Shown: positions 22,858-46,939 of the stretch, piece by piece
Position numbering within the stretch: the stretch's first letter is position 1
Layout of the letters: every line of letters starts with the position of its first letter
DNA from: Saccoglossus kowalevskii
Taxonomy: Eukaryota > Hemichordata > Enteropneusta > Harrimaniidae
Length of the DNA stretch: 59,292 nucleotides
Assembly: GCF_000003605.2 (NCBI RefSeq)
Contig: NW_003140814.1
Span: forward strand, 457,921-517,212
Reading direction: 5' to 3'
Program-made: the position numbers and the translations under genes
Notes under the pieces: model-generated
Database searches by the model: none
Told to the model about the DNA's origin: nothing
Seen by the model: only the letters and a program-made list of their open reading frames with translations

Positions 22858-23085
22858 CTGTTAACCTTTCTGCAACCAGGCTTTCCCACTCAAATTTTTC
22901 TGCACTTCTATCTTATATTCTTCAATATTTCTGAAAATGAACCCTAATTTAGTCAATTTCAGTTTTTACTAAAAAATTTGGTTGTTTTTTTGTCTCAATC
23001 TTCTGAAAGAAAGTGCAGATTATAAACAGAACTATTTTGTGAATTTGTGATGAAAAAGGGAGGGAACTGGTGGTGAAAATGTTAA
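22858..23085 (+). repeat. Dispersed repeat, plus-oriented copy
   Basis: TTAACCTTTCTGCAACCAGG starts this copy, which continues with CTTATATTCTTCAATATTTC, AATCTTCTGAAAGAAAGTGC and TTTTGTGAATTTGTGATGAA. The same blocks in the same order occur reverse-complemented at 41528-41720, showing a dispersed family. No TIR or coding capacity is seen. Confidence 0.7.
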
Positions 23086-23515
23086 AATGTCCATGAATGT
23101 GTGTATGTTAGTGTGACAAAAGAGAACACCATCCGTCATAGACTACATTTTTTACATTTCAAATTGTCAACATTTGAATATTACATTGCAATGTATGGAA
23201 TTCATTCTTTAAATATTTGTGATTATTCCACTTAGATATAAAAATTCACTTCAATTTAGAGAATTTTTACTTCCATTGTGAATTTTCAACTTTGCTAAGC
23301 GCAAGTGAGGACAACATTCAGGCAGCTTGATGAAAAGCATTCAGCAGTAACACTGTGATATGTTTTTTTATCTGTCCTGTTTTACATCACACTGTGGTGA
23401 TACACTAGTTATGTATTTGATAAAGATCTACATACATAAAATCTACATCAAATCTAGTTGAACATCATTTCTCATCATATATCACCACTGAATGGAGGTA
23501 TATCACTATCTGGGG

Positions 23516-23690
23516 TGATATTTAAATAATAACACATGTGAGGGTAATATCACGATTTGTTGCCTGCCCAAGGGGATGNNNNNNNNNNNNNNNNNNNNNN
23601 NNNNNNNNNNNNNNNNNNNNNNNNNNNNAACAGCCCAAGGGCAGACAACAAATCATGATATTGCCCGAATAACCATGTGTTATTTATTTT
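23516..23690. repeat. Inverted repeat flanking the assembly gap
   Basis: The left arm (23516-23577) contains AATAACACATGTGAGGGTAA and GATTTGTTGCCTGCCCAAGG. The right arm (23629-23690) carries the reverse complement with few changes (CCCAAGGGCAGACAACAAAT, AACCATGTGTTATT). The N run sits exactly at the centre, so the missing interior belongs to this palindromic element. Confidence 0.75.
23579..23628. other. Assembly gap (50 N)
   Basis: Fifty consecutive N bases. The true length is unknown; a round 50 may be a placeholder. A tool-predicted open frame running through it is meaningless. Confidence 0.99.
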
Positions 23691-24039
23691 ATCACATCGA
23701 ACAGACGTCCACCACGACAATCACAGCTACCATAGGTCACTCACACCCGCTCTCCCACAAAATAACAACACTTATATTTGAAGTATGCAATATTTTATTT
23801 TATCTATTATAACAAGTTTCACATTACTCAATAACATACATACATTATTTGCTAAAAAATACACTCAGTAAATGTTATTTTCAGCCACAGATACTCTTTT
23901 TAGTAACCATGTTTCAGTAGAGTGAATCACTCAAATTATCGAGAATAACATTTTTGAAATGAATTGAGAAATTCTCAAACGCAAGTTATTTGATCACTCT
24001 ACAGATAAAATTGTCAGAGTGCCGTGGAAATGACTGAAA

Positions 24040-24420
24040 TTACTTTCTCACGAATGTACCACACCTATTCACAAGCCACACAGCTTTAGAGTGTTTTCGG
24101 TTAGCATCGGCGTGGAACGCGTAGAAATGCTCACAGCGTAGAACGCGCTGCAGCGACCCCGGCTGCGATGTTTCAGTGGCGGCTTTGCCGTACATTTTTG
24201 CTTCATATAAAAAATACCATAACCATCAAAACAGAGTATCTTACTTAATATTCATTCTGGCACGTTCACTGTCTATTTCGGATGGCTAAAGTTTCTTCAA
24301 AATCTTGAAAGCAACCCCGAAAACAACAGCAGCCGGGACAGCACCAGTGCAGCGAACGACAATTGGTTATGCGCAGTATTGTTGCGCAGTAGTTTCAGTG
24401 ACGTCATCCATGTGATATAC
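24040..24420. other. CpG-rich segment, probably part of a mobile element
   Basis: In an otherwise AT-rich intron this segment holds many CpG (GTGGAACGCGTAGAAATGCT, AGCGTAGAACGCGCTGCAGC). CGCTGCAGCGACCCCGGCTG and a later CAGCCGGGACAGCACC are inverted relatives. It lies between the gap palindrome and the 20-bp minisatellite, so all three may derive from one element. No open frame is convincing. Confidence 0.4.
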
Positions 24421-24540
24421 CCATGTAATATCCACTTGGCGGGCAATATACCATGTAATATCCATTTTTATTCAATGTCATGTGACTGAGTCTCAACCAA
24501 TCACAGCATGCGTAACAAAAGTGAGATGTGATAACACCTT

Positions 24541-26235
24541 ATAGGCCAATATATCACCACTTCAGGGGATATATCACCACTGCAGGGGATATATTACCAC
24601 TTCATGGGATATATCACCACTTCAGGAGATATATCATCACTGTAGGGGATATATTACCACTTCATGGGATATATCATCACTGTAGGGGATATATCACCAC
24701 TGTAGGGGATATTCACCAGTGCAGGAGATATATTACCACTTCATGGGATATATCACCACTTCAGGAGATATATCATCACTGTAGGGGATATATCACCACT
24801 GTAGGGGATATTCACCAGTGCAGGAGATGTATCAATACTTCAAGGGATATATCACCACTTAAGGGGATATATCACCAAACTAGGGAATATTCACCAGTGC
24901 AGGAGATGTATCACTACTTCAGGGGATATATCACCACTTCAGGGGATATATCACCACTTCAGGGGATATATCACCACACTAGGGATTATTCACCACTTCA
25001 GGAGATGTATCACTACTTCAGGGTATATATCACTACTTCAGGGGATATATCACCACACTAGGGGATATTCACCACTGCAGGAGATGTATCAATACTTCAA
25101 GGGATATATCACCACTTAAGGGGATATATCACCAAACTAGGGAATATTCACCAGTGCAGGAGATGTATCACTACTTCAGGGGATATATCACCACTTCAGG
25201 GGATATATCACCACTTCAGGGGATATATCACCACACTAGGGATTATTCACCACTTCAGGAGATGTATCACTACTTCAGGGTATATATCACTACTTCAAGG
25301 GATATATCACCACTTCAGGGGATATATCACCACACTAGGGGATATTCACCACTGCAGGAGATGTATCAATACTTCAGGGTAAATATCACTACTTCAGGGT
25401 ATATATCACCACTTCAGGGGATATATCACCACTTCAGGGGATATATCACCACACTAGGGGATATTCACCACTGCAGGAGATGTATCAATACTTCAGGGTA
25501 TATATCACTACTTCAAGGAATATATCACCACTTCAGGGGATATATCACCACACTAGGGGATATTCACCACTGCAGGAGATGTATCAATACTTCAAGGGAT
25601 ATATCACCACTTAAGGGGATATATCACCACACTAGGGGATATTCACCACTGCAGGAGATGTATCAATACTTCAAGGGATATATCACCACTTAAGGGGATA
25701 TATCACCAAACTAGGGAATATTCACCAGTGCAGGAGATGTATCACTACTTCAGGGGATATATCACCACTTCAGGGGATATATCACCACTTCAGGGGATAT
25801 ATCACCACACTAGGGATTATTCACCACTTCAGGAGATGTATCACTACTTCAGGGGATATATCACCACTTAAGGGGATATATCACCAAACTAGGGAATATT
25901 CACCAGTGCAGGAGATGTATCACTACTTCAGGGGATATATCACCACTTCAGGGGATATATCACCACTTCAGGGGATATATCACCACACTAGGGGATATTC
26001 ACCACTACAGGAGATATATCAATACTTCAGGGTATATATCACTACTTCAAGGGATATATCACCACTTCAGGGGATATATAACCACTTTGGGGGATATATA
26101 ACCACTTCAAGAGATATATCACCACTTCAGGAAATATATAACCACTTTGGGAGATATATAACCACTTCAAGAGATATATCACCACTTCAGGAGATATATC
26201 ACCACTTCAGGAGATATATAACCACTTCATACAAT
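24541..26235. repeat. Minisatellite, ~20-bp unit, roughly 80-90 copies
   Basis: The unit is GGGGATATATCACCACTTCA with variants ending CACTAGG, CAGTGCA or CACTGCA. Each unit carries the 8-bp palindrome GATATATC. A longer block (ATGTATCAATACTTCAAGGG followed by AAACTAGGGAATATTCACCA) recurs near 24830, 25090, 25670 and 25880, showing higher-order amplification. Three bases times a 20-base unit keep forward frames open for up to 179 codons; they are not genes. Confidence 0.95.
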
Positions 26236-26699
26236 ATATATGATGATATATCACCATGTAAATAATATCATTTTGTACAAATTGAATTGAAAAGTGGTTT
26301 CTTTGCCAAATGATGTTTCTACTAGCTTTTAAAAATTCATCACCATCATTATCACCGTTCCCTGCTCATCGTAATATCATTAGTTTCCATAGCGATGGAG
26401 TATCAACCACTATCAGTCTGTAATTTTCAGTTTCCAAATCATCTTAAAAATCAATTTCTTAAGTAGAATCACGAAACTTAATATTTCACATCAAGGGATA
26501 GACACTGTCTCTTCTTGTACAATTGGAATTGATTAATTGAATTGTGGTGTCATTATTAATGGCTGTAGCATGTGTAGGAAAAGTAAAAAAAAAATTAAAA
26601 CACTGCTTCACTGGTTTCCCATGATTTTAAAATCTTCTTCATTGTAACAGAATGAATTTGAATGGAAATATAGTTATTTCTCCACCATAAAATGTGAAT

Positions 26700-27035
26700 G
26701 TTGTTTCAAAATTGAAACAGAATTCAGAGAAAATTACAGAAACCTTGTGAATATTTGCACCTAACGTTTTGGTAAAAAAAATCTGGCTTCAAAATTAAAA
26801 TAGAATTCAGAGAAAATTACAGAAATCTTGTGAATATTTGCAGTAAAGTTTTGGTGATGGAAATCTGGCTTCAAAATTGAAATAGATTCAGAGAAAATTA
26901 CAGAAATCTTGTGAATATTTGCACTAACGTTTTGGTGAAAAAAATCTGGCTTCAAAATTAAAATAAAATTCAGAGAAAATTACAGAAATCTTGTGAAAAT
27001 TTGTACTGAAGTTTTGATGAAGAAAACCTGGCTTT
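26700..27035. repeat. Tandem repeat, ~84-bp unit, about 4 copies
   Basis: TCAGAGAAAATTACAGAAAT then CTTGTGAATATTTGCA and GTTTTGGTGAAAAAAATCTG recur at about 84-base spacing. The unit resembles the ATTACAG...GTCTGG part of the dispersed repeat seen at 41528-41720. Confidence 0.85.
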
Positions 27036-27749
27036 GAAAACGACCAGCTAACTGTAGTTCTCGATCCAGCCAAAACTTATGCACTAATCTTTGTGGCAAA
27101 GTTACAGTAACTGACATTGAATTGATTAAATCTGTAATATTTTTTTTATCCATGATATTTTATACTGTAATCCAAATCGAGTTATGATTTAGCAGAAACT
27201 AAAAATGTTGTGTTGAAAAATTGAAATCATTAATATGCATGTGCAGTGATTGTACATTTCAAAACAACCAGTAAACTGTGTGTATTAGTGAATTTTATTG
27301 TTTTGTTCAATGATTATTCAGATGTGAACTACAAGAACAGTATTTTCAGTTTATAATAAATCATCGTCTAATTTATTTACCAACATACAGTATCAAACAA
27401 CAATATTAAAAATATTAAAAATTACATGTTCTTGTTCATATTGCATCTTTGACTTTTGGCAAATTACAAAATTATTTTGTAGTCTGACCTTCTCCACATG
27501 AAATGTGGACATAAATTAACCTTTTTTGATCAAAAACTAAAAGCAATATCTTAAACTGTTCATATGGTCCAAAATGATGATGAAATTTAGTGAAAATTTC
27601 ACAAAATGTGTTAATATTTACACTGAATTGGGCGGGAAAAATGTCTGGCACTCAAAGGGTTCATAGATATAGATAATGTGAAATACGTTGTTTGTTTCCA
27701 CGTAATTTGAACATGTGCGTAAGAATAAGATGACAAACTGGTATCGGTA

Positions 27750-27926
27750 CCGTAAAATCTGTATTAGAAGCCATGTACATCCCTAATAGAAATCGCACCC
27801 ATTCTTTTTGAACAATTTGGAGCCAAAAATTTCTCATATGTGTAGATGCTCTAATAGAAGCCCCATCCCATCTGTTGCATTGTACCATTTTAATAGAAGC
27901 CGAGGCTTCTAATACAGATTTTACAG
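27750..27926. mobile_element. MITE with 23-bp TIRs and TA flanks
   Basis: The left end CCGTAAAATCTGTATTAGAA and the right end TTCTAATACAGATTTTACAG are inverted copies with one mismatch over about 23 bases. TA flanks both ends (27748-27749 and 27927-27928). TAATAGAAGCC is repeated internally. The TA duplication suggests Tc1/mariner-type mobilisation; no transposase is encoded. Confidence 0.75.
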
Positions 27927-29224
27927 TAATTAAAAAATATAAAAAAATATTTGTATTTATGGAATAAAGTAAAATTCTGCAACTTGCCCTGTCCATCTGT
28001 CCCTGCTAGTCTATGAAAGAAATATGAGGTTACAAGTGACTATCTGTATTCTGTGTCTAGTCTTCAGTTGTTTAATATTGGTTGTGAGAGATGCGTGTCC
28101 AATTACAAAAAGCAGCTGACAAGTTAGGCTTTAAATATCTTTATCACATCGTTTGAGTTCACATAAATTTTATTATTAAATCCTTCACATTTTCTTTTGA
28201 CATTTTTGATGCCAAACAATTTCCAGCCAGCAGTAATTGGAGTTTGAGTGAAAATGAAATATGATTCTAAAAAATAGCTTCTTTTATTAAATTAATTTTT
28301 ACCTTGTCCCAGGCCATCAATGACTGTTTTAAAAACGTTTTTTTTTTTTTTTTTATGCAAACTCCATTGGAACTTTTTATGCTTTTCAATGAATGGTAAA
28401 TATATGACCACTATGATACAATTTTGCTTGTAACACACCGAACTAAACTTAAAATATCTGACAGTCAGCATGCATGTTTGAAGTGTCAACTGTTCAGGTT
28501 GTTAACAGTTTTATCACATCTGATATTTATTCAATTAGATGTACTATGCTTATTGATTACTGCTTCAGTAGATTATTTGCTCTCACATGTGTGTTCAGGA
28601 TTAAACCATATAAATATACATTTATATTGCATGGTACTACTTGTCGATAGAGCATACGTGCAAAATACACAGATCAGAAGAGCTTCTCCTCGTAATAAAT
28701 CAATATGGATTATTTATTCACTAAAACTTTTACCCACACACAGTTAAACATCTCTAAAAATGATTTACTGTTTTTTTCCACCCCTCTGGAGTGAATAGTT
28801 TGTTCCGTTACAGCAATTATGCATTCGCGCTTTCATATTGGAATGTTTTTTTTTTTTATTATATAAAAATTAGATGACCTGTTTTGGGGGGGTTAAAATC
28901 TGGCGGTGTTTGTATAAAGGGCTGTGTCTGCCCACTCAGTTATAAAAGTATCGTTTGAGTGTTCTACATATGTAAATCAAATCAATCCGAGTAATTAGCA
29001 TACAAATGTAAATGTACATATTTGTAAATGTAAGAGCGTATTATATTTGACTTGTATTATTGTATTCAAATCATGGTCAAGGAAACACAAAAAAAGTTAT
29101 AAAACATAAATACATATACTTTACACTATGTACTGTTTTTATTAATTTCTAGTATTTTAGGTGTTTTTATGATTTGGGGATTTTATGGCAGTTTTTAAGG
29201 CAAATTTTGTAAAATAGATATAAC

Positions 29225-29440
29225 CCTTTTAATTTCAATTGGTCCAGCCCTTATTGAGTAGAAACAACTCTCCATCATTTTTATTGGTCAAGCCCTTATT
29301 AAATAGATATTATCCTTATTTGTCTAGCCCATATTAAACAGATACATGATATCCTATATCAATTGTCCCAGTCCTTATTAAATACCTGTAGATATACCCC
29401 CCATTTCATTTGGTCCAGCCCTTATTAAATACAGATAATT
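29225..29440. repeat. Tandem repeat, ~50-55-bp unit, about 5 copies
   Basis: TTGGTCCAGCCCTTATTAAA recurs five times with diverging spacers (ATAGATATACCCC-like). The second to fourth copies carry substitutions such as TTGGTCAAGCCC and TTGTCTAGCCC. Confidence 0.75.
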
Positions 29441-29659
29441 GAAAGAATCTATGGGCGTTTCAATAAAATTTGTTTAGTTGACGTATTGTTAATTTGAGAA
29501 AACTATGTATAGAATGTTGTGAGATGAGATTGCGTGAAATGAACATTTTAACCTCTTCACCGCTGTCAACTTTTGTCACCTTCCACTCACTGGATTTGTT
29601 TAAATGTCAGTTTGTGTTCACCGTAAATATTGATCAAAATCATGAAAACTAGATCTAAT

Positions 29660-30370
29660 AATGTAGCAATCATGTAGTCATTTGCTAAAATCATGTAGTC
29701 ATTGTTAAAATCATGTAGTCATTAATGAAACCATGTAGTCATTGATGAAATCCTGTAGTCATTGATGAAATCATGTAGTCGTTGATGAAATTATCTAGTT
29801 AATGTTGAAATCATGTAGTCATTGATGAAATTATATATGTAGTCATTGCTGAAATGCAGTTACCATAATTATATATGTAGTTACCATAATTATATATGTA
29901 GTCATTGCTGAAATGCAGTTAATGTTGAAATCATGTAGTCATTGTTAAAATTATATATGTAGTCATTGCTGAAATGTAGTTACCATAATTATATAATGTA
30001 GTCATTGCTGAAATGTAGTCAATGTTGAAATCATGTAGTCATTGTTAAAATTATATATGTAGTCATTGCTGAAATGTAGTCAATGTTGAAATCATGTAGT
30101 CATTGTTAAAATTATATATATAGTCATTGCTGAAATGTAGTTACCATAATTATATATGTAGTCATTGCTGAAATGTAGTCAATGTTGAAATCATGTAGTC
30201 ATTGTTAAAATTATATATGTAGTCATTGCTGAAATGTAGTTACCATAATTATATATGAAGTCATTGCTGAAATACAGTCAATGTTGAAATCATGTAGTCA
30301 TTGTTAAAATTATATATGTAGTCATTGCTGAAATGCAGTTAATGTTGAAATCATTTAGTCATTGTTGAAA
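29660..30370. repeat. Composite minisatellite built on ATGTAGTCATTG
   Basis: At the left the simple ~20-base unit AAATCATGTAGTCATTG(A/T)T is repeated. From about 29830 it becomes a longer composite: ATTATATATGTAGTCATTGC, TGAAATGTAGTCAATG, TTGAAATCATGTAGTCATTG. Copies with TTACCATAATTATATATG are interspersed. This indicates nested amplification of a simple unit into a higher-order one. Confidence 0.9.
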
Positions 30371-31496
30371 TCACGATGTCAGTGTTCAAATCATGTCTTA
30401 AAACGTGAAATCATGTTGTCATGTAGGCAATGCTCACTGGGAAAAGCACAGAGCCACTCTGGTAATCATGTTTCCAGTGTTGAAAAACATGTTGTGAATT
30501 TTGAAACAATTTCATTAGAATCACATTGTCAGTGTTAAAATCATGCTGACAATGCTAGGGAAGTGAAGAAAGTAAACGTCCATTCCCAGGGTCATATATC
30601 TTGAAAAAATTCATCAGTCTGTCAGACGTTTTCCTAAAATTGATTTGCATAATCACACTCCAAATATGCATATACATTTTGATGAAACTTCAAGTTGTTT
30701 GCACAGTCTGGCTCATTGACTGTAAGTCTGTAAACAATCTCTGTTTGAGTCGCGCTGTTGAAGAACAACATACCGATGCCCTGCAGCGTTCACCGCTATT
30801 CACTCTTACGGCGTGAGTGCACTCCTGGAGTTCATTAGAATTAACGCATCTTTTCACTGATTCTTGATTTTTCACTAACTTTCCAAGCTTGACTTTTTTT
30901 TTTTGATTGTGCGCCATTAAAACGGTACCGAGAGTGAATTATGATCCATTGAGTGTAGCTGTTTCATATTGACCCCGTGACATCCAAGCTGAATTGCTAT
31001 TGGCTGACTGAGTGATTTCTTAACATGTAGTAATTTGCTGTATTTTGCGTGTAGCCCATTAAGCCATCACCAACACAGCTAGTAACTCTAAGTATAGTTG
31101 GTATTCAGCAAGGCCACAACCTCGAGATAAATGCACAGTTTGCAATCAGTGACAAAGAAGCCAACTTTCTGATACACCATGTAGTAACACTATAAAGAAA
31201 AAAATTTGAATAACACTCAAGATTAAGATGGACATTTATTTGTTTGTTTGTTTGTTTTGTCTTATCCCCAATTAACCAGCATCCTTTAGTAAGAATGCAT
31301 GTAAGAATTTTTTAGATAAATTTCAGGCACTGAATAGGAAAATGCTAGACCTATTACTGTTGCTTATTTTATTATAAGGCAATAATTGTCTTCCAATTTG
31401 CAAACCCCTAATGTTAATTTTAAAATTAACTCAACATTGTCTGCCCTGTCAGGCATTTATCAATATTGTCTTCCTCATGAACATCAGATTCTCTAA

Positions 31497-31672
31497 TACT
31501 GTAGAATACTTTATTTTAGCTGAAATTAATTTTCACTGAAAACACTTTTTAAGCGTTTTGTATGGAATTTATTTTCACTGATTTTTTGACAAGTTGAATG
31601 TAAAACATAGGAAATAATGTATATTCGCTGGATTCACTGAATCATCCCTTCAGCAAAAATAGCGAAAATTCC
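31497..31672. mobile_element. TA-flanked MITE, copy 2 (right end lost)
   Basis: The copy begins TACTGTAGAATACTTTATTT then TAGCTGAAATTAATTTTCAC, and contains TTTTGTATGGAATTTATTTT and CCCTTCAGCAAAAATAGCGA. The match ends near 31672 without a clear right terminal repeat. It is oriented like the copy at 16117. Confidence 0.65.
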
Positions 31673-31759
31673 ATAATTTAATTTCATACTCATTATACTC
31701 TTATTTATTACTATCATCACATCAATAAGAACATGTATGTTTTCTAAAGATGCAATCAA

Positions 31760-31811
<52 letters not shown>
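31760..31811. repeat. ATT trinucleotide microsatellite
   Basis: About 17 perfect ATT units. Confidence 0.97.
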
Positions 31812-31812
<1 letters not shown>

Positions 31813-32149
31813 ATTTTTTAACTGGTTAAACATTACTAGCTATAAAAAAAAGAGATGAACATTTATGATATAGATGTAAAATAAGCTACCTTGTTCAAAA
31901 AAAAGGCTTTACGTTTTCATATTTCGAAAAGATATTAAAATTTAAAAATGTAGAAAACAATCTGAAAATATTTTCATTTCAAAGATTTTAGTTGGATGCA
32001 GACTCAAAATAGTCTCCATCAATAAGGTGAGTGTAATTTGAAATTGTATGAAGTCACCAAGAATATGCATTTACATCATAGTAGGTCACTCAGGATTAAA
32101 CAAAAGCTTCTGGACCTTTGGATTAATTTTCTATTAAAAATTGACACTA

Positions 32150-32461
32150 CCGTACTCGACTGCATTAGCGCCCAGGGGCCTCAACTCAGAAAATCATGAT
32201 TTTTTAGGGGTAGGCGCTTACCCGAGCACCCCCCTCGAAAAAGAGTGCAAATGAAAAATGTGATTCATCAAGTGACAGATTACGTCTTTGAGGGAAAATC
32301 AAATTACGAAATTAGTTGAGTCGTCATTGATTTTCACAATGAAGAAACAGAAATGATCACAAAAAATATGCACATTTTATTACAATATTAATTACGTACC
32401 ACCAGAATTTGCGCAAAAGCGGGGGTGGTCGCTTGCCCGGGCATGGGCGCTACGAGTACGG
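32150..32461. mobile_element. GC-richer MITE with TA flanks
   Basis: Left end CCGTACTCG, then ACTGCATTAGCGCCCA; right end TGGGCGCTACGAGTACGG, the inverted counterpart apart from a short insertion on the left. TA lies at 32148-32149 and 32462-32463. The subterminal parts (GTAGGCGCTTACCCGAGCAC and GGTCGCTTGCCCGGGCATGG) are also inverted relatives. It is 312 bp and non-coding. Confidence 0.72.
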
Positions 32462-33699
32462 TAATAATAATATTATATAAAGCTTAACTTGAAAATAATG
32501 TTCCTGAAGAACAAATTATTAATACAGTATTTTTAAAATAAAATAAAATAAAATAATTTAAAAATGGCTTCTCAGTGAGTATGGACTGGATTTTTAAAAA
32601 TGCATTGATTTCAAGAAATCTGTTTTTTATAAAATGAAAAAAAAGTCACGTTGTAGCCTTTTATTTTTGTATTATACAGTTGTGTTTACCCATAGATTGT
32701 GAGTAAGTGCACCCCTACTATAATTAAATCAATTCTTTGAATGGATTTCTAATTCCAGCATTGAGAATAGGGTTCACTTACCTTTCATAGAAGATCCAAC
32801 CACTATCTGCAGGGGGTAGTCAGTAGACATTTCATGAGGGGGGGGGGGTGATTGATTATTTCTCTTCTCACATTTCTGAATCAATACCAAATTCCGGCTT
32901 AGCAGTTTTATGTTTATTTTTATAGAAAAAACAAACAAATTATTTGATCAAATTAATTTTTTTGTGAAAATAATATTTAAAATTCAATAAATGAACATTG
33001 TTATTTTGTACAAATCTTTGAACCATGACCACTTAATCAACATTATCCAGAACTTTTATTGTTTGATTCAGTATATATCTGATTTCCTATCAAGTTGGCA
33101 TTTATTTTTTCCTTTGAGTGTTGTAGACTCTCATTTTTCTGCACTATAATAACCATTTCCTATGTTTTGATGCTGCAAACAAACACAATATTCTCATTCA
33201 TGAACCTATTATAAATCTACCAGTACGTACATTTGAGAAAAAAATACAATGTACAAACATACGCTAGAGAGCAGGAATCAACATCTGACAAAAATAACAC
33301 TGACTATTAATCCTACCAATCTAAAAAGCAGGACAAAGTAATTCCCTTAGTAAAATGCGTACTCTTCTGATGGCCTCTGTAGTTTTCTATTTTTAGAACA
33401 TCTATACTGTCAATGATGTTTCACCAACTGAATGTAGGGTGTCACAAATAATTACCGCTATGGAAACAGAAAATCTGGATTTGTAGCCTGATGAATAAAT
33501 AATAAACCTCACAAAGTCTGCTAAATATTAATGATCTGCAAGAACAGCTTAAAAATTGAAATCATTTATTTTTTACGAATAGATATTTATTTCAATATAT
33601 TGTAATTATTTATTCATCTCTTTGTCTGGATTTTCGTGATTGCAATTTCTATTTTGCCATGTTTTTAAAGGTCTATTATGACAAGATCCTCTTTAAGGA

Positions 33700-34236
33700 T
33701 GAATTCTAATAACCTTTTCTTGTGATGATTTTTGGCTTCAGCGTGTATATGTATTTAAAACTTATGTACGTTTAAGTGGCTGGCTCAGCTTGCCTTTCTG
33801 ATGAATTACCTGCCATTATTTGAGCGGAGAAAAAGCCTCTTAAGTCCACAGTAGTCAAATTGATTTCACTTTCCTGTCTACAAAGCCCTGTATGTGAATA
33901 CCTTCCTTCTAGTATTATCTGAATTGCGATAATACCAACTTGCTAATGAAGCTCCCTGAGCTCATGTCAAATATACACTCATTTGAATATTGATCCCCTA
34001 TCTTGGTGCATATGGGTAAATTATGCAAATGAGCATTAGTGGAGTGGAAGTAGTCTTCTGCGAAAGGCTGAGTATTAAGTGGATGGAGGATCGTTTTACC
34101 GATACACCTGATTCTGTATCCAATACCATGGCAATTACGATTAGAGCAATATTTCCACAGTCAGCCGAGGTAGTTAGCCAAACATGAAAATTTGGAGAAT
34201 TTTTACCAGGCAGGAGGTGAGATTCAGTTGATTGAA
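33700..34236 (+). promoter_or_regulatory. Likely internal promoter and 5' leader for the short ERG form
   Basis: This non-repetitive stretch precedes the alternative first exon. It holds a perfect octamer ATGCAAAT (34023-34030, POU-factor motif), a CCAAT-like TATCCAATACC, and no clear TATA box near the start codon. A 12-codon upstream frame (34185-34220) ends before the main ATG and could damp translation. The promoter role is inferred from the downstream exon; the transcription start cannot be placed. Confidence 0.35.
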
Positions 34237-34323
34237 ATGGAGTTTGTACGGCGAAAACTAGGATTAATCAAGGAGATTTCAAGAGATGCACAGGAGGAAA
34301 AAGAAAAACAAGATGATGAGAAA
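34237..34323 (+). CDS. Candidate ERG1b-like alternative first coding exon
   Basis: ATG at 34237 lies in a good context (G at -3, G at +4) and opens 29 codons that end exactly at AAA|GTAAGT in phase 0. The next exon, at 50682, begins in phase 0 with [12 protein letters not shown]. The predicted start is MEFVRRKLGLIKEISRDAQE, followed by a charged EEKEKQDDEK tail; then S1-S6 would follow. In mammals the ERG1b promoter lies in the intron at this same junction and gives a short unique N-terminus without the PAS domain. Residue similarity to the mammalian 1b start is not evident beyond a basic cluster, so the case rests on position, orientation, phase, Kozak context and donor. In-frame stop at 34186-34188 closes the frame upstream. 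Not proven without RNA evidence. Confidence 0.6.
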
Positions 34324-37300
34324 GTAAGTTACCAAAATGTGTCAGGCAGGTTTTAGATTTTTCCTGCAAAATGTTTTTTTTTCTGCTAATAATACAATGG
34401 TGTGATTAGTATATTTATTTTGTTGAAGACAACAAAATATTGTTATATTTCAGAATTATTTGTAAAGTGAGTAAAATCAGACACAAATAATCTGAGTGAA
34501 TTTCAGTGTGACAACTTTGTGTCAGCACACTCTTCAAAACCAGAAATATTTCAATTTTTCTCAAGTCCTCGTAGATAAACATTATTCATCCATCAAAGAT
34601 ATCTCCGGAGAGAGGTTAATTCTTTAAGAGTACAAATTCCACCAGAGAACTGTGTTTGTAAGAGATAGTGTGCATATGTGCTTGTTTTACTGGCAGTTTG
34701 GCATAACTGCTAATATTTATTCAATATTTCATATGACCATTTTGCAATCTTATTGTTTTAATTTGTCCCTATTTTAAATGTTGTCAGAAATAAAATGATT
34801 CAGTGGAATATGGTATGGTATAAATCTAATACCATGAAAAATTTGATTTCTCATTAATTTGTATGTTGACGCGTACTGTTATTATTAATAGAAAAAATAA
34901 AAAAAACTGTAGTGTTGTGGGTATTGATGTTAGTCTTTTCCATGCTGTGAGCAATCAGCTTTTCTGTCGCATTGAATAGGCTTCATTTTGTTCCGTACCT
35001 TTAAATAGGAAACCTTATTTTTGTAATTTGCAAAACCCGGTGAAGAGGTTTCCTATTCCCAGTGAGTGCTGCCGTAATTCTCTTTCAAGAACCATAATGG
35101 GAAAAATCATAAAATAAGTAAAAAAAATATTATAGAAAATATTTACATGCAGTTTGTATGTGTTGGTGATATTTGATGATTTGTTGTTGTTACAACGCTG
35201 TATATTAAAAAGTGTTTTTCAAAAATCCATCCAGGTTTCGACAATTATATTTATTTGCTATACAATTAACGTTTATACTGAAGGGGTCATTGGTCGTTGA
35301 CTTTGACTTTGAACTTGCCCAGTAGCTCATTATATTGAGATGCATGACTGGGTTATATTGATGCATGTTGAAGCCAAAGCGGTACATGTTGTCTACATAC
35401 CACATGCATGGCTGGCATCAATCATAATGGAAATATATATGTTTTTTTTTTTTAAATCTCATATTTTCTCACATTAAACAAACATAGCTATCTGTATTTG
35501 TCAATGTTATAATATACCCTGTATTCAGAGATCTGATAAAAGATTAATATATATTTATCAATGAATATTGTTCCCTTAATACCTTTACTCACCATAATTT
35601 TTCTTTCCAAATATTGGTGTTAAATATTTTTTTTTTTTTTTTATGATTTTTTTTGTTGCTAATTTTGGATCTGGTAAACTTAACGTCTGGATCGAAATGA
35701 AATATGCAGGTTTATTTTGCGGGAAGTGACAAAAGTTGATTTTGGAATCAAAAGGTTAATTATTTTTATGTTCACTTAGCTTTTCTGCCTTCTGGCAGTT
35801 TCATGTTTATTTGTACTACTCCCACTGATTTTGTGAGTTATATTGTCTGTATTTTGACTGCAATTTTTGTTATTCTAGTCTTTTTATGTTCTTATTATCA
35901 ACAAAAACAATTATTATTATCACTTTATTTAATTGATTCTTAAACTGTCATTTCCCCCTTAATTTGAGCTTTTTCTATCATAGTCATTCATTCTCAAGGT
36001 ATTGTCAGGATCATATTATCAAGGCGTTTCCAAGGCAATGCAACGATTTGCATTAGATTCACTAGATTAGCCAAAAGTTGTAAAGTGGAGGAAGATAATA
36101 ATCGTCCATAATACTAATGGACTTTAATTAATATGTCATTCATTCTGTGTATTTTAGTTAATGAAATATGCTATGAATATTTTACTGTTTGCTTTTTTCA
36201 TTTGATGTAAATGCCTTCCCCATTGAACATTTCCCATAATGCAATGCACAAACCGAGGGAGAATATTCCAAAACTGCATGGTTTTGTATTGGTGATTGCA
36301 TAATACTTCATTGTTACAAAAAGCACAACAAATCACAACATGACGTATAATCTACATTGATATTAAATTTGGATACAAAATAAAGTCATCTTATTTTATC
36401 AGAACAACATAATTATGGGATAATTTAGCATTGATTACTGAATCACTAAAATAGAATTATGATTTGATTGTTCCCAGTTGATACTAAAGCTAATCTGGTT
36501 ACATCTATTAAAGAGAAAAGTGAATTTTCTTCAAAGACATGCAGATTCATTTCATTTTTCTTTCTCTGCAACTTTTTTTTCTTCATATTTGCACGTACGA
36601 TTTGACATTTACAATATTTGGCTGTAAACAAACAGTATTGTTAGAAAAAAAAGAAACTTATTTTTAGAACCACTCAAATGATATTTATGCTGATTTTTGG
36701 AGTTCACTCAAAATAAATTTCTAAAGCTTTGAAATTAAATTCTTGATAATGAGTAAAAAAAAAAAGCAGTGTTCGCAAACAGTACAGTGTAATACAGAGT
36801 ATTAAATCAATTAAGACTGGTTGTGCCTACATTCATGTACATACATCTATATACTCTTAAATTAAAATAGAACAAAAGATTTCTGCAGCATCTCGTGTTT
36901 CATTATTAGTTGACTCTCATGCTCATATTATATTACTGAGTAAATTATAACTGATGTTTATTTTTAGTCCACTCCAAAATGTGCACTATCCAATTATACA
37001 CACAGTGTTTTTGTATGCGCTAGTTTGTCGTTAATGAACCGAAATAAAGAGCATTCATAACTGTGAAATATTACTACCTTTCTTGTATTTCCTGGGGCTG
37101 TATGTAGTCTACAATGTTTCAAAACTTGTATTAAAGCCTTAATATAAACAACTTTGTTTCATATTACATCTTCCTGAATACCATAGGGTATAATTTTTTG
37201 TAAAATAATATTGTTGTTTTGGCAACAATCATCGCAGAATTTATTAAATTACATAATGAAAATCTGTACGCCCCCAGATTTAAAATTGTCTTGACATGTG

Positions 37301-38240
37301 TTTTTCGCTGATATAAAAACTGATGAGAAAACACAGATCTGACTGTGCAGTGTGCACCATTCTATATTTACCTTGCTACAATAATTTGGATAACAAGAAC
37401 AGTCATTCTCCCAGTGATGTTTATGTATGCATGTGTGTATTTATATATAAGTAGAAAATACTCAGAAACATCTGAAATTTGAATGTTATTTATTTAGATA
37501 ATTGATTTTAATGCATAAATTAGGTTTTGCTAATTTTGTAAAATGAAACCAAACAATTTACTGTTAAAAAACTGAAACCAGACACGTAGCAGATGTGAAT
37601 TGGTTTTCAGCTATAAAGCTGAAAAGATTATGGCTTCTTTGACATGTTTGTTTCCAAAGGCTTTGATTTATGCTTTCTTTTACCACTCATACTATAGTTG
37701 TCATTTCGTTGGTGAATTGCCATATACTCACCATACTGTACCTTTGTTACTGAGAAATAAATAGTCTTAGAGTATTAGTTTATAAAATGTGGAAGTGCAT
37801 AGAGGTGTTAGGCAAGGGAATACGTTATTACCAGCCATATTTCACGGCATTATGGTCACAATTTGCATGTAGTTAAGTGGTCATAATATTATTTCTCCAA
37901 CAGAAGATAAATATTCTTTGATACTTTTGTATATATACATTTATCAAGGCTTAAAGACAAATTGTCTTTGGTCTCTCGCCTCTTATTTGCAAAATATGGT
38001 TGTCTGTAATTTTAATTTGGAGTTCTGTTAATTTAAATGTAATCCTGGTATTGCACTATTCATGTCATGTGCACCTTTTTACTCCTTCTTTCACCTTCAT
38101 GTCCAGCTTTCTAATTGCTGCCTCCAATCCCTTAGCCTGACAAGTTGGCGTGAGTGGTGCACTGGACTGCTGCATTGTCACCCTTATGGATCAAGTGGTA
38201 TTGTCCTATTGTTGAACGCTAACCAGCATTAGTAAACAAC

Positions 38241-38345
38241 ATGGCGGACTCAACTCGCCGGAATGCCAGGGCATCGATCATAAAAATGTTGGTAGCTGAT
38301 AGAATTCGCCACTCTGTTTCCAATTTTGAGCATAAACGAATATAA
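38241..38345 (+). other. Short ATGGCGG-start open frame in a CpG-richer patch
   Basis: AACATGGCGGACTC starts 34 codons (MADSTRRNARASIIKMLVAD...) ending with TAA. The patch 38210-38420 has more CpG than its neighbours, and ATGGCGG also fits a YY1-type site. A weak GTAGCT donor would lie in phase 0 after ATGTTG (38289-38290 onward), which could join 50682, but the site is poor. I treat it as unresolved. Confidence 0.15.
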
Positions 38346-38649
38346 TATAGTACTAGGATTGCTGCCGCTGCCCCACGTATTAGGTACTTCCCCCCGTTCG
38401 CCCCGTGCATGTCCAGAAAGTCCCACATGTATCTGCGCGTTAATTAGTAGGACCCCTCCACTCCTGTTTTTTTTACAACGCCCTTCTACACCACTGCCAC
38501 TCTCACATTGTCTAACTTCCAAAACAACGCAACCTTCACTTATGCATGTATGTCTACATTGATCTATTTATTGTAATATATTGAGCTAAAATCACAATAT
38601 TTGCATGCCAGTGAGTGAAGTTGGTAAATAAATGCAACTATATCAAGCA

Positions 38650-39215
38650 CTGTTCAACAAATGTACAACCACTGTTCATGTTCAACCACTGTTCAGCTAC
38701 TGTTCAACCACTGTTCATGTTCAACCGCTGTGCAATCACTGTGCAACCACTGTGCAACCACTGTGCAGCCACTGTTCAACCACTGTGCAACCACTGTTCA
38801 GCCACTGTTCAACCACTGTGCAACCACTGTTCAACCCCTATGCAACCCCTATGCAACCACTGTGCAACCACTGTGCAACCATTGTGCAACCATTGTTCAA
38901 CCCCTGTGCAACCACTGTTCAACCACTGTGCAACCACTGTTCAGCCACTGTTCAACCACTGTTCAGCCACTGTTCAACCCATGTGCAACCCCTGTGCAAC
39001 CCCTGTGCAACCACTGTGCAACCACTGTTCAACCACTGTGCAACCACTGTGCAGCCACTGTTCAATCACTGTTCAACCACTGTGCAACCACTGTTCAGCC
39101 ACTGTTCAACCACTGTGCAACCACTGTTCAGCCACTGTGCGACCACTGTTCAGCCCCTGTTTCCATCACTGTTCAACCACTGTGCAACCACTGTTCAGCC
39201 ACTGTGCAATCAAAC
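38650..39215. repeat. Minisatellite, 11-bp unit, about 50 copies
   Basis: The unit CAACCACTGTG varies mainly at two positions (CAGCC for CAACC and GTT for GTG). Since 11 is not a multiple of three, each frame reads the same 33-base triple unit, so all three forward frames stay open and show an 11-residue period (VQPLCNHCATT). The three long overlapping frames here are therefore artefacts. Confidence 0.95.
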
Positions 39216-39424
39216 AAAAACATACTTCTGTATAGTAAGTTATGCAGGGTTGGATATGTTGTTGCAATATCTGGTAATTATACAGACGAGATCAGATCTA
39301 CTTTCTACCCTATGAGTAAGCAAAATATTATTTGTAACTTTCAAGGTTCTTATTTCTTCTTTTGCATTTCATGGTCACGCTCCAATAATACTTAATGATT
39401 ACCAACCAGCCTTGTGCTTGACTC

Positions 39425-39520
39425 CTATAGGTCACACATCCTGGCATTATGCATGACCCCTAAAGTTCACACATCCTGGCATTAGGCATGACCCCCAAAA
39501 GGTCACATCCTAGCATCAGC
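39425..39520. repeat. Tandem repeat, ~45-bp unit, about 2.5 copies
   Basis: GGTCACACATCCTGGCATTA followed by GCATGACCCC(T/C)AAA recurs twice, with a third partial copy (GGTCACATCCTAGCAT). Confidence 0.75.
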
Positions 39521-40630
39521 TCGGATGTCCTCTAACAGCAATAATTTCTGACATCACATCTCAGCGTGTGAACATCTGCTTGAATTGTTATGGAAATATA
39601 ATCGAGAAATTCATATTTGTAGTGAATTTGTGGGACTTACAACATATTCAAAACCGCGGATGAAACTGTTTCGGTATGCTGCAAACTAATTTAAAGTTGA
39701 CGTCACTATGAACGTTATAACAGCAGGCATTATTATTACATTAACAAGAGGTCAATTGTCTGCACAGCTTGCAGCTGTAAAATGAAAACCAGTATTCAGT
39801 AAATAAGAGGAAAAAATAAACTGGAGCTAGTTTGACTGACAACGATAACAGACTGTTACTGTAAATAGTTTTTATATGGTCACAAAAATCTGCTACATCT
39901 TCAGCATGCATCAGTAGTTCACAAGACTAGATCTCAAAATCAATTACGTAACCAAGATACGATATATTCATCAAAACATGAAAGGTACCTTTCATGGTCA
40001 AAATATTTGCATTTCGCCACTACTTCAAGTAAGTCTAAGCTTTGTTCAATTGAGGTTTTTATTAAGGTTTGAATCTTGAAATAACAATTTTTCAAAGTAT
40101 GTAAATTAACGAATTTGAATCGATGGAGTTGTACACTTTATTCCTGGTAGGGAGTGAAGAGTGCCTACTTTTACAATCACATCATCATCTGCATTGCATT
40201 GTGGGATATACATATATGAGTGACAAGTTTTAAAGGGGCATGTATCCCATATCCTTCCAATCTATAAGAAAAAAATTAGAATGATATTTTCAAGTGGAAC
40301 AATTTGATAAGGCTATTTACTATGCAAATTCAGTTCATTAATATTCATAGATTCATAAAAAAAAAAATAGATGTTAGAAAGGTAGCTGCTTGTACGCAGT
40401 ATATTAGCAGTGAAGTAACAGGAGACCCTTTTGTTTGCTTTCTGTGCAATTCTAAAAAAATAAAAAAAGGGAAAATCCAGAAATTATGTAGTTTTATTTG
40501 TGCCATACAAACTGATAACACATGTTTATGTTGTTATGTATAAATTTATACAGTGTTGTTTCAGGAAGTCTGGAAGGGAACAAAAGTACTTGTATTGCAT
40601 GTGATTATAAATGGTTCATGCGCTGTGTAT

Positions 40631-40957
40631 ATAGTGCATTTTTGCCACAGAAGCCATATTCATGTTTTGGGACTACACACATAACAAGGCTCAATCAAAT
40701 GGCAATTTTAATGCGCTATCCTGGCGTCAACCAGGTTTGGTCGAACACAAGCACCTGCGGACCTTAACCAAGGTTTCCCTAAAATGGCATTCGTTAGTGA
40801 ATGAATCTCGGCCAGTGGAATTGGCCTTCCCATTGAGTCTGTGACGCACTCACCCAGGGTAGGTGTCGACTCTTTTGATGTTCAGCCTGAGGTAGGATTT
40901 GAACTTGGGTCTACCGATCATGAGTCTGATGCAACAACCACTGTGCTACCAGCCACC
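40631..40957 (-). mobile_element. tRNA-derived SINE with target-site duplication
   Basis: Read on the minus strand from 40957, it opens TGGTGGCTGGTAGCACAGTG, with box A TAGCACAGTGG (40938-40948). Box B AGTTCAAATCC is at 40895-40905, inside GGTAGACCCAAGTTCAAATC, typical of a tRNA TPsiC arm. The unrelated body includes CCACTGGCCGAGATTCATTC and ends near 40631. Flanks ATGCGCTGTGTAT (40618-40630) and ATGCACTGTGTAT (40958-40970) are a 13-bp target-site duplication with one mismatch. This marks LINE-mediated insertion of a pol III SINE. The anticodon arm is too decayed to name the parent tRNA. Confidence 0.82.
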
Positions 40958-41527
40958 ATGCACTGTGTATTTACTTTCTTTAATTTTGAGTAAACTGTTA
41001 TTGTTAAAAGTTTTGTTTAAGTTTTTACAAAACTGATATATACATTCCCTGTACCCTTGGATCCAAACATATATATTAAAAAACAGTATTAGTATACAAT
41101 TCAATTCCATTGTTATTTACTGTGTTAGTGGCTTATATTATTTTGAAATGTGTGGACAGTTTTATTGATATCATAATATCAACTTTGTGAAAGTTTTTTT
41201 GGCCATTCATATTTACATGAATTTCAATTAATCAATGAAATGTATCCAATACGACGCATTGTTCAGTGGTGCTGTACAATTAGTTGTTGTCAAAGACTCT
41301 GGTAAATATGAAAGTTTTGAGATTCTTTCTAAAGTTATCTATTGTAGGTTGCTCATAAGCGTGGAGCTGCTCGAGAAAATGCTCGCCCACCAGATGCTAG
41401 TCTGAATTTACTCTTAGACTATTGTTTTAACAATACAATACGAGAAAAATAATGCGACCTTGATCCTCATTTTCTTCTTTATATTGAATCACTCAATCGA
41501 CATACATGTGTACATGGATGTCGAAAG

Positions 41528-41720
41528 TTAACCGCTTCATCACAAATTCACAAAATAATCCTGTTTATAGGCTGCACTTTCCTTCAGAAGATTGGGACAA
41601 ATTGAATCAAATGTTGTCTGTTGGCTCCAAAATTAGGGTTCATTTCCAGAAATATTGAAGAATATAAGAAAAAATTACAGACAAATTTGGACGAAAAAGT
41701 CTGGTGTCGAAAAGGTTAAA
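41528..41720 (-). repeat. Dispersed repeat, minus-oriented copy
   Basis: Reverse-complemented, this runs TTAACCTTTTCGACACCAGA, CTTATATTCTTCAATATTTC, AATCTTCTGAAGGAAAGTGC and TTTTGTGAATTTGTGATGAA, colinear with 22858-23085. The outer end (GTCGAAAAGGTTAA) resembles ends of other single-copy repeats in the window. Confidence 0.7.
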
Positions 41721-42567
41721 GTAGTGCTGAAAAAATATATGCATGCATTTTCTGTTGAGTTGTTCACTCAACTGAAAAACTGATATATATTAATTAAAGG
41801 TGGAATGGTAATAAAGGTAATGAAGTCCTATAGATATTTATTAAATTTGTCATGTATCATTTCAACAGCAGTGAGAAACAAAATGTGGTCAATCTAAAGT
41901 GTGTGCATACACTGTTCAAAAATATTTGTCGATGATATTTTCTTGTTGCTAGGAATTCAATTTTAAAAAAAGATGCCCAGAAACATTTCAATTGTTTTCT
42001 CTCGAACTTCCCTCATCTATTCTTCTAAAAACTGAAATTTATATTAGAATCTGTAAAAAAAACTACCCTGAATTATTAAGAAAATTGTTTCTTAATTTAC
42101 ATCTTATAAATAATGTGTATTTGAGAGACCAGTGAATCATTCTCTTAAATAGCGTATGACACCTCGTAAAATCAGTAGATCAATGCTGTGCGTCTTAACT
42201 TGTACTACCGGGGTATAATTGCATTAGCTATATCAGGCAACCCAGCAGGTTTGCCTCTATTCTAAAACAACTCATCCTGTCTAATTGGAACATGAGCAGC
42301 CTCTCAGCTACTTTCAGATGAGCTATTTCTAATTTGTAGATTTTAAGATTTATTTACTACGTGTGGGTTATAAAGGTGATTGTTTAATTGTTTCGTTCAA
42401 GTGTTAGTTGTGAGATTTATTGGTAGAAATAATACAAATCACAGCATATTAAACGATTTCAGAAATTTAAATAAACTCCAAACAAATAGTATTTATCAGT
42501 TTTTTTCTGAAAGTTTTGCGAATTTTCTTCATGATAATTATCTCATAAAAACCAGTCATCAATTGAA

Positions 42568-42770
42568 TACTGTAGAATACTTTATTTTCGCTTGGAATTT
42601 ATTTTCGCTATTTTCGCTGAAGGGATGATTCCGTGAAAATAAAATCCAGTGAATATACTTTATTTCCTATATTTCACATTAAACTCATCAAAAATCAGTG
42701 AAAATAAATACCATACAAAACAATCAAAAAGCCTTTTCAGCGAAAATTAATTCCAGCGAAAATGAATATA
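42568..42770. mobile_element. TA-flanked MITE, copy 3 (inverted relative to copies 1 and 2)
   Basis: It starts TACTGTAGAATACTTTATTT then TCGCTTGGAATTTATTTTCG. The internal order is reversed relative to the copy at 16117: GAAGGGATGATTCCGTGAAA comes first and ACCATACAAAACAATCAAAA later. It ends near CCAGCGAAAATGAATATA with a decayed right TIR. Confidence 0.7.
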
Positions 42771-43684
42771 TGAATTGTTGAATTGATTCTTTGGGAAAAG
42801 CAGTGTATCCTACTGATTAATGTTTTAACTAGCCATATTGTGAATTATTATAAAACTATTTTGAAACATGTGGGAGGTTGTAAGTTATATGTTGCTTTGG
42901 TCTCTTTAAGTTGTATATTATCTAATTTTGAGTATGTCATGAATGTAATACAATTAAGTTGGCAAAGCAATATAGTACAATATACAAAATATTGCGAAAT
43001 AGTGTTTATATTGGATCTGCAATGTACGTATGTGGCAACACAGTTGGAATATATATATTTACATATCACAGTCGTATAGCCGTAATTGTGGTCATGGTGT
43101 GTTTGTTGTACCACCTGCTTAGAGTGACTCATGACTGATTGTCTTTGAAAGTCTGATAATAGTCTTTGCTTTAACAAATGAAAATCCATGATGAGTTCAT
43201 TAGTAGCAATACTAACACCATGTGACTAAGCACCGGTCACTCGGTGGGCCAAGCAACTGTCTAGAAAATTATCAGTTAAAACATCAAATTTCACAGAATG
43301 ATATTGCTTTAAAGAGAAGCACGTAAAAATGTGATTGCAATTAACTAAAAGAGTGAATTAAATATGAAGGTTAAAAGAATTGAGTGCATCAATTATAATC
43401 CTGCTACTGTCTGACCTGTCTGCATGGTGACCTACATGAACATGTACCTGGGAAAGTATTGCATTTAAATGTCTCTTTGTGCCAAAACCAGGTATTTAAA
43501 ATCAAGCTCATTGAAAAGTTTTCAAGTGGAATGTTTCTTTTTAAGTCTTCAGTTTGCCATTGACAGCCTATTTAATATAATTAATGTGGAGTGGAGTAAC
43601 AGACGCTCTGTATTGCTGTGAACAAAATGTGGTGAGCATGCCGACAAGCTTACCAAATGAAATATAATATACAAGTCATGTATA

Positions 43685-45235
43685 ATGAGATATCACTGCT
43701 GTCCACACTATATGGTATACTGTATTCATTGTCTCTCCCTAATGTGCTATCACTGCTGTCCACACTATATGGTATACTGTATTCATTGTCTCTCCCTAAT
43801 GTGCTATCACTGCTGTCCACACTATATGGTATACTGTATTCATTGTCTCTCCCTAATGTGCTATCACTGCTAACCACACTATATGGTATACTGTATTCAT
43901 TGTCTCTCCCTAATGTGCTATCACTGCTGTCCACACTATATGGTACATTGTATATTGTATTCATTGTCTCTCCCTAATGTGCTATCACTGCTGTCCACAC
44001 TATATGGTATACTGTATTCATTGTCTCTCTTTAATGTGCTATCACTGCTGTCTACACTATATGGTATATTATATTCATTGAGTCTCTCTCTTTAATGTGC
44101 TATCACTGCTGTCCACACTACCGGTATATGGTATACTGTATTTATTGAGTGTCTCTCCCTAATGTGCTATCACTGCTGTCCACACTATATGATATACTGT
44201 ATTCATTGAGTGTCTCTCCCTAATGTGCTATCACTGCTGTCCACACTGTATGATATACTGTATTCATTGAGTGTCTCTCCCTAATGTGCTATCACTGCTG
44301 TCCACACTTTATGGTATATTATATTCATTGAGTGTCTCTCCCTAATGTGCTATCACTGCTGTCCACACTATATGATATATTATATCCATTGAGTGTCTCT
44401 CCCTAATGTGCTATCACTGCTGTCCACACTACATGGTATATTATATTCATTGAGTGTCTCTCCCTAATGTGCTATCACTGCTGTCCACACTATATGGTAT
44501 ACTATATATTCATTGAGTGTCTCTCCCTAATGTTCTATCACTGCTGTCCACACTATATGGTATATTATATTCATTGAGTGTCTCTCTCCCTAATGTGCTA
44601 CCACTGCTGTCCACACTATATGGTATATTATATTCATTGAGTGTTTCTCCCTAATGTGCTATCACTGCTGTCCACACTTTATGGTATATTATATTCATTG
44701 AGTGTATCTCTCCCTAATGTGTTATCACTGCTGTCCACACTATATGGTATATTATATTCATTGAGTGTCTCTCCCTAATGTGCTATCACTGCTGTTCACA
44801 CTATATGGTATATTGTTTTCATTGAGTCTCTCTCCCTAATGTGCTATCACTGCTGTCCACACTATATGATATACTGTATTCATTGAGTGTCTCTCCCTAA
44901 TGTGCTATCACTGCTGTCCACACTATATGGTATATTATATTCATTGAGTCTCTCTCTTTAATGTGCTATCACTGCTGTCCACACTATATGGTATATTATA
45001 TCCATTGAGTCTCTCTCTTTAATGTGCTATCACTGCTGTCCACACTATATGGTATACTGTATTCATTGAGTGTCTCTCCCTAATGTGCTATCACTGCTGT
45101 CCACACTATATGATATACTGTATTCATTGAGTGTCTCTCCCCAATGTGCTATCACTGCTGTCCACACTGTCTTGTATATTGTATTCATTGAGTTTCTCTC
45201 CCTAATGTGCTATCACTGCTGTCCACATTATGCGT
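43685..45235. repeat. Minisatellite, 57-63-bp unit, about 26 copies
   Basis: TAATGTGCTATCACTGCTGT then CCACACTATATGGTATACTG and TATTCATTGAGTGTCTCTCC make up the unit. Early copies are 57 bases and lack the GAGTG block; later ones are 60-63. The 57-base copies explain the open frames on both strands at 43650-44095. Confidence 0.95.
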
Positions 45236-46939
45236 TACTGTGTTTCATACAGTGTTAACATCTTGTATTACATCTCAGTTTTTCTTCCTTTGGTAATACC
45301 GCTTTTATTCCTCAAAGGTCACATTCATGGTATTTTTAGTGCTATAAAAATTTTAAAAAGTGACTTTATTTTATTGATATTTCCTAGACTTGAATAATTT
45401 AGTTAGCTACAAAAAATATACATTCCCAAATAGTGATGCTGTCGTCCCAACAAAAGTACCAGGATGAAAGTGGCCAATTGTGTAATTCATGTATCATTTG
45501 ACTAAATGTACAACATGAGGAATATATTACCATCGAATCAGTGGCATTATTATTATGTATATATGAAGTGGCATTCGCTCATTCTACATGTATTATTTAG
45601 TTGGGATCAAAACTATGTGACCTCAATTTCTTTAGGGAATTCAGGTTGAGATATTTGTAAGAGTTATTGACTTGTTGTACGTGACATACAGGAAAAGCCG
45701 TTTCGTTATTAGTAACAAGCTGTCTGTTTTAGAATTATAATAACAGCTATTTTTTTATTTATTTGATATACATTGTATATTATTGTAGATGTTTTCCGAA
45801 TAGTTTGTTTTTGTGAAAGCTGGGGTGTGTTTTATCTACCGTATGGGAGTTGAGCTGTGCTACAGTTGATATTTCAATGTTCCTTCAGACAGATTGCTGA
45901 GTATGATACTTCCCTGTTTGAACCTAACATTATATATTTATTAAATAATAATGCCCATCGGACAAGTGTTCCAATTTCATGTATGGCTATAGGTGCAGAG
46001 GAAAGAAATTTAATGTTTTATTTAAAACATAAAATATTATATTATAAAATATTAAATTATTATTGTTTTTTTCTGTAATAATGTGTGTATGATATTCCAA
46101 ATGTGCCCTGGCAAACAACTATTTCACTTGGTTCCATGTACTCTCAGTGCAACAATGGTATCTTTATAAATAGCTTGAAATGTCAATTGTGGTCGAATCT
46201 AGCAGGACAATCAACATGCAAAGTGTGCATCAACATCATTTCGAAATGTTCCAGTGTTATTCAATCGGTCAATAGAAACCTTTTGTTTCAGTTTGAATTG
46301 AGAAATTTATAAATATTTATGAAGATGAAAGGAATGTCTCTATTGCCACGAGAGTAGTATCAATTGATCGTTTAGAATCTTTATGCTAGTGTATTATATT
46401 GTGTTGCATCTGGTAGAACATACTTATATAACTAGAAGAAAATTAGAAGCATATTCTAAACATTTAGTAAATATGTAAAATAAGAATTTTGTTGAAATAA
46501 TACTTCTCAAAAAAGATTGAGTATAATTTTCATGTTACAACAAAAAAATCTTCATGTCTTTATGCACTGTATATCTAGAGTCTGCCAAATTCACATTATT
46601 ATTGCATTTCATATATCAGATATGAATATTGATATTATAAGAAACATGATATGCATGAACCACTTCATACATTGCTTGAATAATAAAGAAAATTCTCTAA
46701 CTTAATGATAACAAACATAGGCATGTACCATTTTCATTTTTGTTCTGAACTATAAGTGCATGCACTTTTACTCTTGATTAATATAACATTGTTGGCAGCC
46801 ACTATTGATTTACACATAGTCTAGTCTGTCTTGATGTTAGCCAATTAAAAAAAACTAAAAATAGTCTGTATACTAATTCTTTGTTGTTTTGTCCGAAAAT
46901 ATATTTGTAATTGTTTAAATTGTACACAGCTTATTCAGT

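Follow-up and report, generated by a model that had tools for sequence, protein, structure and literature searches.

A candidate coding exon in the long pre-S1 intron of the Saccoglossus kowalevskii ERG gene and its plausible ERG1b-like use

In the mammalian heart, ERG1b helps set the closing speed of IKr, and the human ERG1b N-terminus carries an R-X-R motif. The PAS domain has been lost more than once among animal ERG genes. The fly ERG gene considered below is seizure. In the available part of the source, mammalian ERG1b is described as starting in intron 5, before exon 6, and replacing exons 1-5, and the PAS-less forms ERG1b/1c as activating and deactivating faster (PMC9113952). For the C. 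elegans ERG gene unc-103, the available parts of two reports describe promoters A (used as a pan-muscle promoter), E (sex muscle and some neurons) and F (PMC7115159, PMC2432499). The accessible portion of PMC9989356 describes fly and worm ERG as lacking the PAS/eag domain, indicating that PAS-less ERG subunits occur in invertebrates; PAS-less genes, as far as the available parts of the sources go, include Nematostella NvErg2-5, fly ERG and zebrafish Kcnh6b (PMC9989356, PMC13398235). A review states, in its accessible part, that all KCNH channels except ERG1b have PAS (PMC7515569), a statement at odds with what PMC9989356 says of these three animals, the fly, the worm and Nematostella. Searches of an open-licence library turned up no report of an ERG1b-like exon in an invertebrate, and sequence-database isoform models may already contain the exon described here.

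We analyzed a window of 59,292 nucleotides from the hemichordate S. kowalevskii (contig NW_003140814.1, positions 457,921 to 517,212); coordinates below are those of the window. The gene on its + strand is a true ERG (Kv11), as the first-pass annotation of this DNA had proposed. Specifically, the S1-to-S3 exon at 50682..51140 matched human ERG with an E value of 1.8e-70, and the next family member, KCNH5, with 1.3e-28. Ion_trans was matched in two exons of the gene, one of them the S4-S5-pore exon at 54841..55240 (E 1.4e-16). Further upstream, the exon at 12864..13049 (..STFLCSVLIAPVRNENDEVVMYILNYEDV..) aligned with the C-terminal part of PAS, with a PAS_9 score of 18.9 bits that lies below the cut-off of 27 (E 0.0019), and it matched human ERG PAS chains at E 3.5e-4 and up, an unrelated Ig-like chain being slightly better at 2.7e-4. 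From these weak scores, the gene appears to retain at least the C-terminal PAS part. Motif scanning of the readable DNA upstream found no exon for the N-terminal half of PAS, nor did scanning of the readable DNA downstream find C-linker/CNBHD motifs; on both sides, a large share of the sequence is N. Two N-linker exons lie between the PAS exon and S1, at 16830..17321 (TTCTAG acceptor, GTAACA donor), which has the top exon score of the whole window, and at 17807..18018, which ends ..DATHNVGEKVAQ in phase 0.

The exon ending at 18018 was aligned to human ERG 311-376 (E 4.4e-4), so that the phase-0 intron behind it, 32,663 nt long (18019..50681), lies at the human residue boundary 376/377. The upstream exon closes with HNVGEKVAQ at 18018, and the downstream exon starts at 50682. 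We take mammalian ERG1b to join the channel core at exactly this boundary, residue 377. The locus resembles mammalian ERG1b (KCNH2 isoform 1b), as described in the available part of PMC9113952, in having a short candidate coding piece in the pre-S1 intron that would replace the PAS-bearing N-terminus; judged from the sequence, this piece can join the 50682 exon in phase 0, as in the ERG1b-type layout. The first-pass annotation had read it as an ERG1b-like alternative first exon, and its placement in this intron, before a phase-0 downstream exon, was borne out.

The candidate is a 29-codon start-to-donor frame on the + strand (MEFVRRKLGLIKEISRDAQEEKEKQDDEK, 34237..34323), and its ATG, the good start context claimed for it (G at -3 and +4), the upstream in-frame stop (TAG at 34171-34173) and the coordinates all proved exact on re-examination. 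It is followed by the donor GTAAGT (34324..34329, AAA/GTAAGT), in phase 0 as had been claimed, which scored 7.35 bits with generic, untrained splice matrices; the five other donors of the ERG gene in the window scored 6.0-11.9 bits.

We compared this frame with what the intron yields by chance. Order-2 Markov simulation of the intron (60 copies) gave, per strand, an average of 1.67 frames that reach 29 codons and end in a donor as good, and the real intron holds one such frame on each strand. Length and donor were thus rejected as proof of an exon, since chance yields as many. Once codon usage was included, the candidate stood moderately above chance. Over both strands, and with the tandem arrays and the vicinity of the candidate excluded, its codon log-odds score of 12.0 was matched by 51 of the 7,580 intron windows of 29 codons without a stop; of the 171 such windows that begin with ATG, one matched it. 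Only one reading frame of the candidate scores (12.1 vs 3.1 and 0.0, the other two both with stops). Taken jointly, the first-exon features were satisfied by a single + strand frame of the real intron and by none on its - strand; no frame satisfied them in 80 simulations under Markov order 2, or in 80 under order 4. In control DNA, consisting of 24 stretches of the same contig with 269,704 readable strand-bases, the same joint screen gave three frames (two in stretch L017 and one in L030), or about 0.36 per intron strand, and laxer thresholds gave 4, 5 and 10 frames. Note that the thresholds for frames and exons were chosen after the candidate had been seen, and that the codon models rest on 2,183-2,764 codons.

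Upstream of the frame, we found an acceptor that the first-pass annotation had overlooked. It is TACCAG at 34204..34209 (TTTTTACCAG/G), 27 nt 5' of the ATG; it shares the frame of the candidate, and its phase agrees with the upstream exon. Its score of 7.9 bits is reached by 24 of the 1,527 AGs of the intron and lies within the 7.1-8.1 bits of four real acceptors of the ERG gene; the acceptor before 54841 scored 5.2. The nine codons between acceptor and ATG are open and code-like, raising the codon score from 12.0 to 14.3. The resulting candidate exon at 34210..34323 on the + strand has 114 nt, or 38 codons (AGGEIQLIEMEFVRRKLGLIKEISRDAQEEKEKQDDEK), is phase 0-0 and has an exon score of 29.6. 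There are seven AGs in the 63 nt before the ATG, two of which score well; the second of these, an acceptor ending at 34213, is slightly better at 8.3 bits and would break the phase with the upstream exon. In addition, the polypyrimidine tract of acceptor 34209 consists of five T only, another AG ends 12 nt upstream of it, as one also does just upstream of the real acceptor 17806, and no clear branch-point word was found near it.

At the level of complete exons, the candidate was an outlier. Among phase 0-0 exons of the intron, its 29.6 compares with 15.5 for the next of 14 on the + strand and 20.5 for the best of 7 on the - strand, and 2 of 58 phase 0-0 control exons, both in L017, scored above it. 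In an any-phase scan of the window, whose training set included the codons of the real ERG exons and excluded those of the candidate, it ranked fourth on the + strand, among real ERG exons and ahead of 17807-18018 and 54841-55240; the best - strand piece reached 23.7. With a codon model built from five other loci (2,183 codons, ERG gene excluded), the candidate scored 27.4 and ranked third on the + strand, behind pieces of two real ERG exons, 16830-17192 and 12883-13049, which were detected with partly wrong ends; the best on the - strand was 21.3, and two control exons, both in L017, reached 27.4. The control DNA gave 14 non-overlapping exon-like pieces at 26 or above, four of them at 29.6 or above (three in L017 and one in L030), some of which are probably real exons.

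These comparisons bear on whether the candidate is a non-functional stretch of intron that happens to resemble an exon. For such a chance resemblance speak the 1.7 frames per intron strand expected from start, length and donor, the three control frames and 14 control pieces given above, the choice of features after the fact, and a 3' half of the candidate that looks purine-rich by eye. On the other hand, its standing as a phase 0-0 exon against 15.5 and 20.5, its ranking among + strand pieces of the window, fourth with one codon model and third with the other, and the single scoring frame argue against chance, and we regard this explanation as unlikely. Taken together, codon use and the in-frame acceptor 34209 make the case for an exon, with length and donor alone at chance level, and 34210-34323 is in our judgment very probably a real coding exon of the ERG gene.

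Two observations on the control DNA deserve mention in their own right. L017 holds an open frame of 396 codons (4955-6142) that has a strong codon score besides a good donor and is probably a real gene. Three further stretches of the same contig, L024, L026 and L027, carry related exon-like pieces (EDCQL.FWYHMY in L024 and L026, CTIRFWFHMY in L027), which suggests a repeated-domain or duplicated gene family.

We also considered that the exon might belong to another gene nested in the intron, or be a decoy exon borne by a repeat, as could be imagined in a long intron with several tandem arrays. However, the ERG exons on either side match its phase 0, and it lies outside all 23 tandem-repeat rows. 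In addition, a peptide search of the genome (572 Mb, 4,830 contigs), which scores only the best candidates, returned no match beyond the locus itself at E values up to 10, speaking against repeat or paralogue debris. A nested gene or decoy is thus very improbable. The peptide had no Pfam match and no match to a solved structure. In a search for relatives elsewhere, there were none in viral contigs, and genome contigs gave one distant channel in a bacterial bin (L013). On a separate contig, a COX1 match with 7 internal TGA codons was observed.

If the exon is real, two uses fit it. The first is as the first coding exon (34210/34237-34323) of a PAS-less, ERG1b-like channel, a reading to which we give even chances from the sequence. 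In its favour count the start context, the precedent of ERG1b in the matching intron, the promoters A, E and F of unc-103, and the existence of ERGs without PAS in fly, worm and Nematostella. Beyond the frame, splice signals, phase, gene identity and exon-like score described above, we infer for this short form a transcription start, splicing, a protein and a gating effect of its own. A promoter inside the 32.7-kb intron would drive a short ERG isoform, the candidate being read either directly as the first exon or after an untranslated leader exon joined to it at 34209 or 34213. Donor 34323 would be spliced in phase 0 to the S1 exon (50682), giving a product that consists of the candidate peptide followed by S1-exon sequence, without the PAS-cap and PAS domain. 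By the precedent of mammalian ERG1b, short and long subunits would assemble together, and the short one would close faster; faster activation and deactivation would be expected by analogy from the loss of PAS. At the N-terminus, an amphipathic helix would take the place of the PAS domain.

The second use is as an in-frame cassette, in which some long transcripts would carry 34210-34323 between the exons that end at 18018 and begin at 50682. The N-linker would then gain a helix of 38 residues, between PAS and S1, with no new promoter and no PAS-less channel. We hold this to be possible, though somewhat unlikely. An acceptor and a donor of normal strength, an open frame and a phase that matches both neighbouring exons were found, as this use needs, and the code-like codons before the ATG agree with it. 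Against it stand the short polypyrimidine tract with its nearby upstream AG and lack of a clear branch-point word, the slightly better acceptor at 34213 with its broken frame, and human ERG, in which alignments of the flanking exons show no insert at the 376/377 boundary. AlphaFold, run on the single sequence, predicted one helix over residues 2-37 (mean pLDDT 93.3), which is amphipathic and compatible with such an insert. Charged Glu/Lys-rich peptides are often predicted as helices, and the prediction therefore does not discriminate between the uses of the exon.

The acceptor also bears on how a PAS-less form would begin. So strong an in-frame acceptor speaks for splicing at the 5' side; an exon that simply begins at a transcription start is the version of the PAS-less reading that we favour least, because so good an acceptor would then be a coincidence. 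The candidate may accordingly be spliced on the 5' side too, as a cassette or behind an untranslated exon. Upstream of it, we found a CCAAT (34120) and a TCAGTT resembling an initiator (34224), and no TATA-type word in 337 nt; the G+C content over the preceding 300 nt is unremarkable, 23% of intron blocks being as rich. These promoter words do not decide between the uses. The octamer ATGCAAAT at 34023 was rejected as a promoter mark, with 18 copies in the window vs 9.5 expected, and a bacterial promoter scan was empty and is unsuited to an animal gene.

Returning to the PAS-less reading, we asked how close the peptide is to ERG1b itself. In an alignment with the human ERG1b N-terminus, shuffles of the peptide scored as high in 2,339 of 5,000 trials with stiff gaps and 1,878 of 5,000 with soft gaps. 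Homology from the shared VRR...AQE look was rejected on this ground, and descent from ERG1b is unsupported, since the peptide is no closer to it than its own shuffles. The candidate peptide, as read from the sequence, lacks the R-X-R motif of human ERG1b, and, in a further difference from mammalian ERG1b, a strong in-frame acceptor precedes its exon. Of the alternative first exon proposed in the first-pass annotation, the ERG gene, the intron, the phase and the exon-like character thus stand and the shared ancestry is unsupported; an ERG1b analogy, as distinct from descent, is plausible. Overall, the underlying observation is sound, the exon is better than that annotation knew, and its interpretation is plausible with two uses that fit.

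The comparison extends to other animals. As far as the available parts of the sources describe it, C. elegans unc-103 is alike in being an ERG gene with several promoters and a PAS-less product; the worm gene has lost eag/PAS, whereas the Saccoglossus gene appears to retain the C-terminal part of PAS at least. NvErg2-5, fly ERG and Kcnh6b are alike in having an ERG core without PAS, but each is, as described in the accessible portions, a wholly PAS-less channel, whereas here the choice would be between isoforms of one gene. It is conceivable, though distinctly improbable in our view, that a two-promoter ERG layout, with a long PAS form and a short PAS-less form from the pre-S1 intron, predates the split of vertebrates and invertebrates, and that fly and worm lost PAS by dropping the long-form exons. 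If that layout were ancient, the Saccoglossus gene would be a living intermediate with both forms. A PAS part and a PAS-less start at one boundary outside vertebrates would make it testable whether PAS losses were promoter losses, and, if the PAS-less start is true, also whether combining subunits of the two lengths is an ancient means of tuning repolarization. If used as a cassette, the exon would add a new, regulated insert to the ERG N-linker, a region that is poorly understood.

Several minor features of the window were recorded as well. The intron contains four large tandem arrays, at 24549-26229, 38643-39209, 43683-45231 and 47018-48438, with units of about 20, 11, 61 and 58 nt, respectively, the first three of which yield long spurious open frames. 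Three copies of ATGCAAAT lie 94 nt apart at 8208-8403, a hint of another tandem array around 8.2 kb. An imperfect inverted repeat, 19223-19335 / 19445-19557, has 113-nt arms that are 73% complementary and is possibly a mobile-element remnant; an exon-like piece at 19044-19163 lies close beside it.
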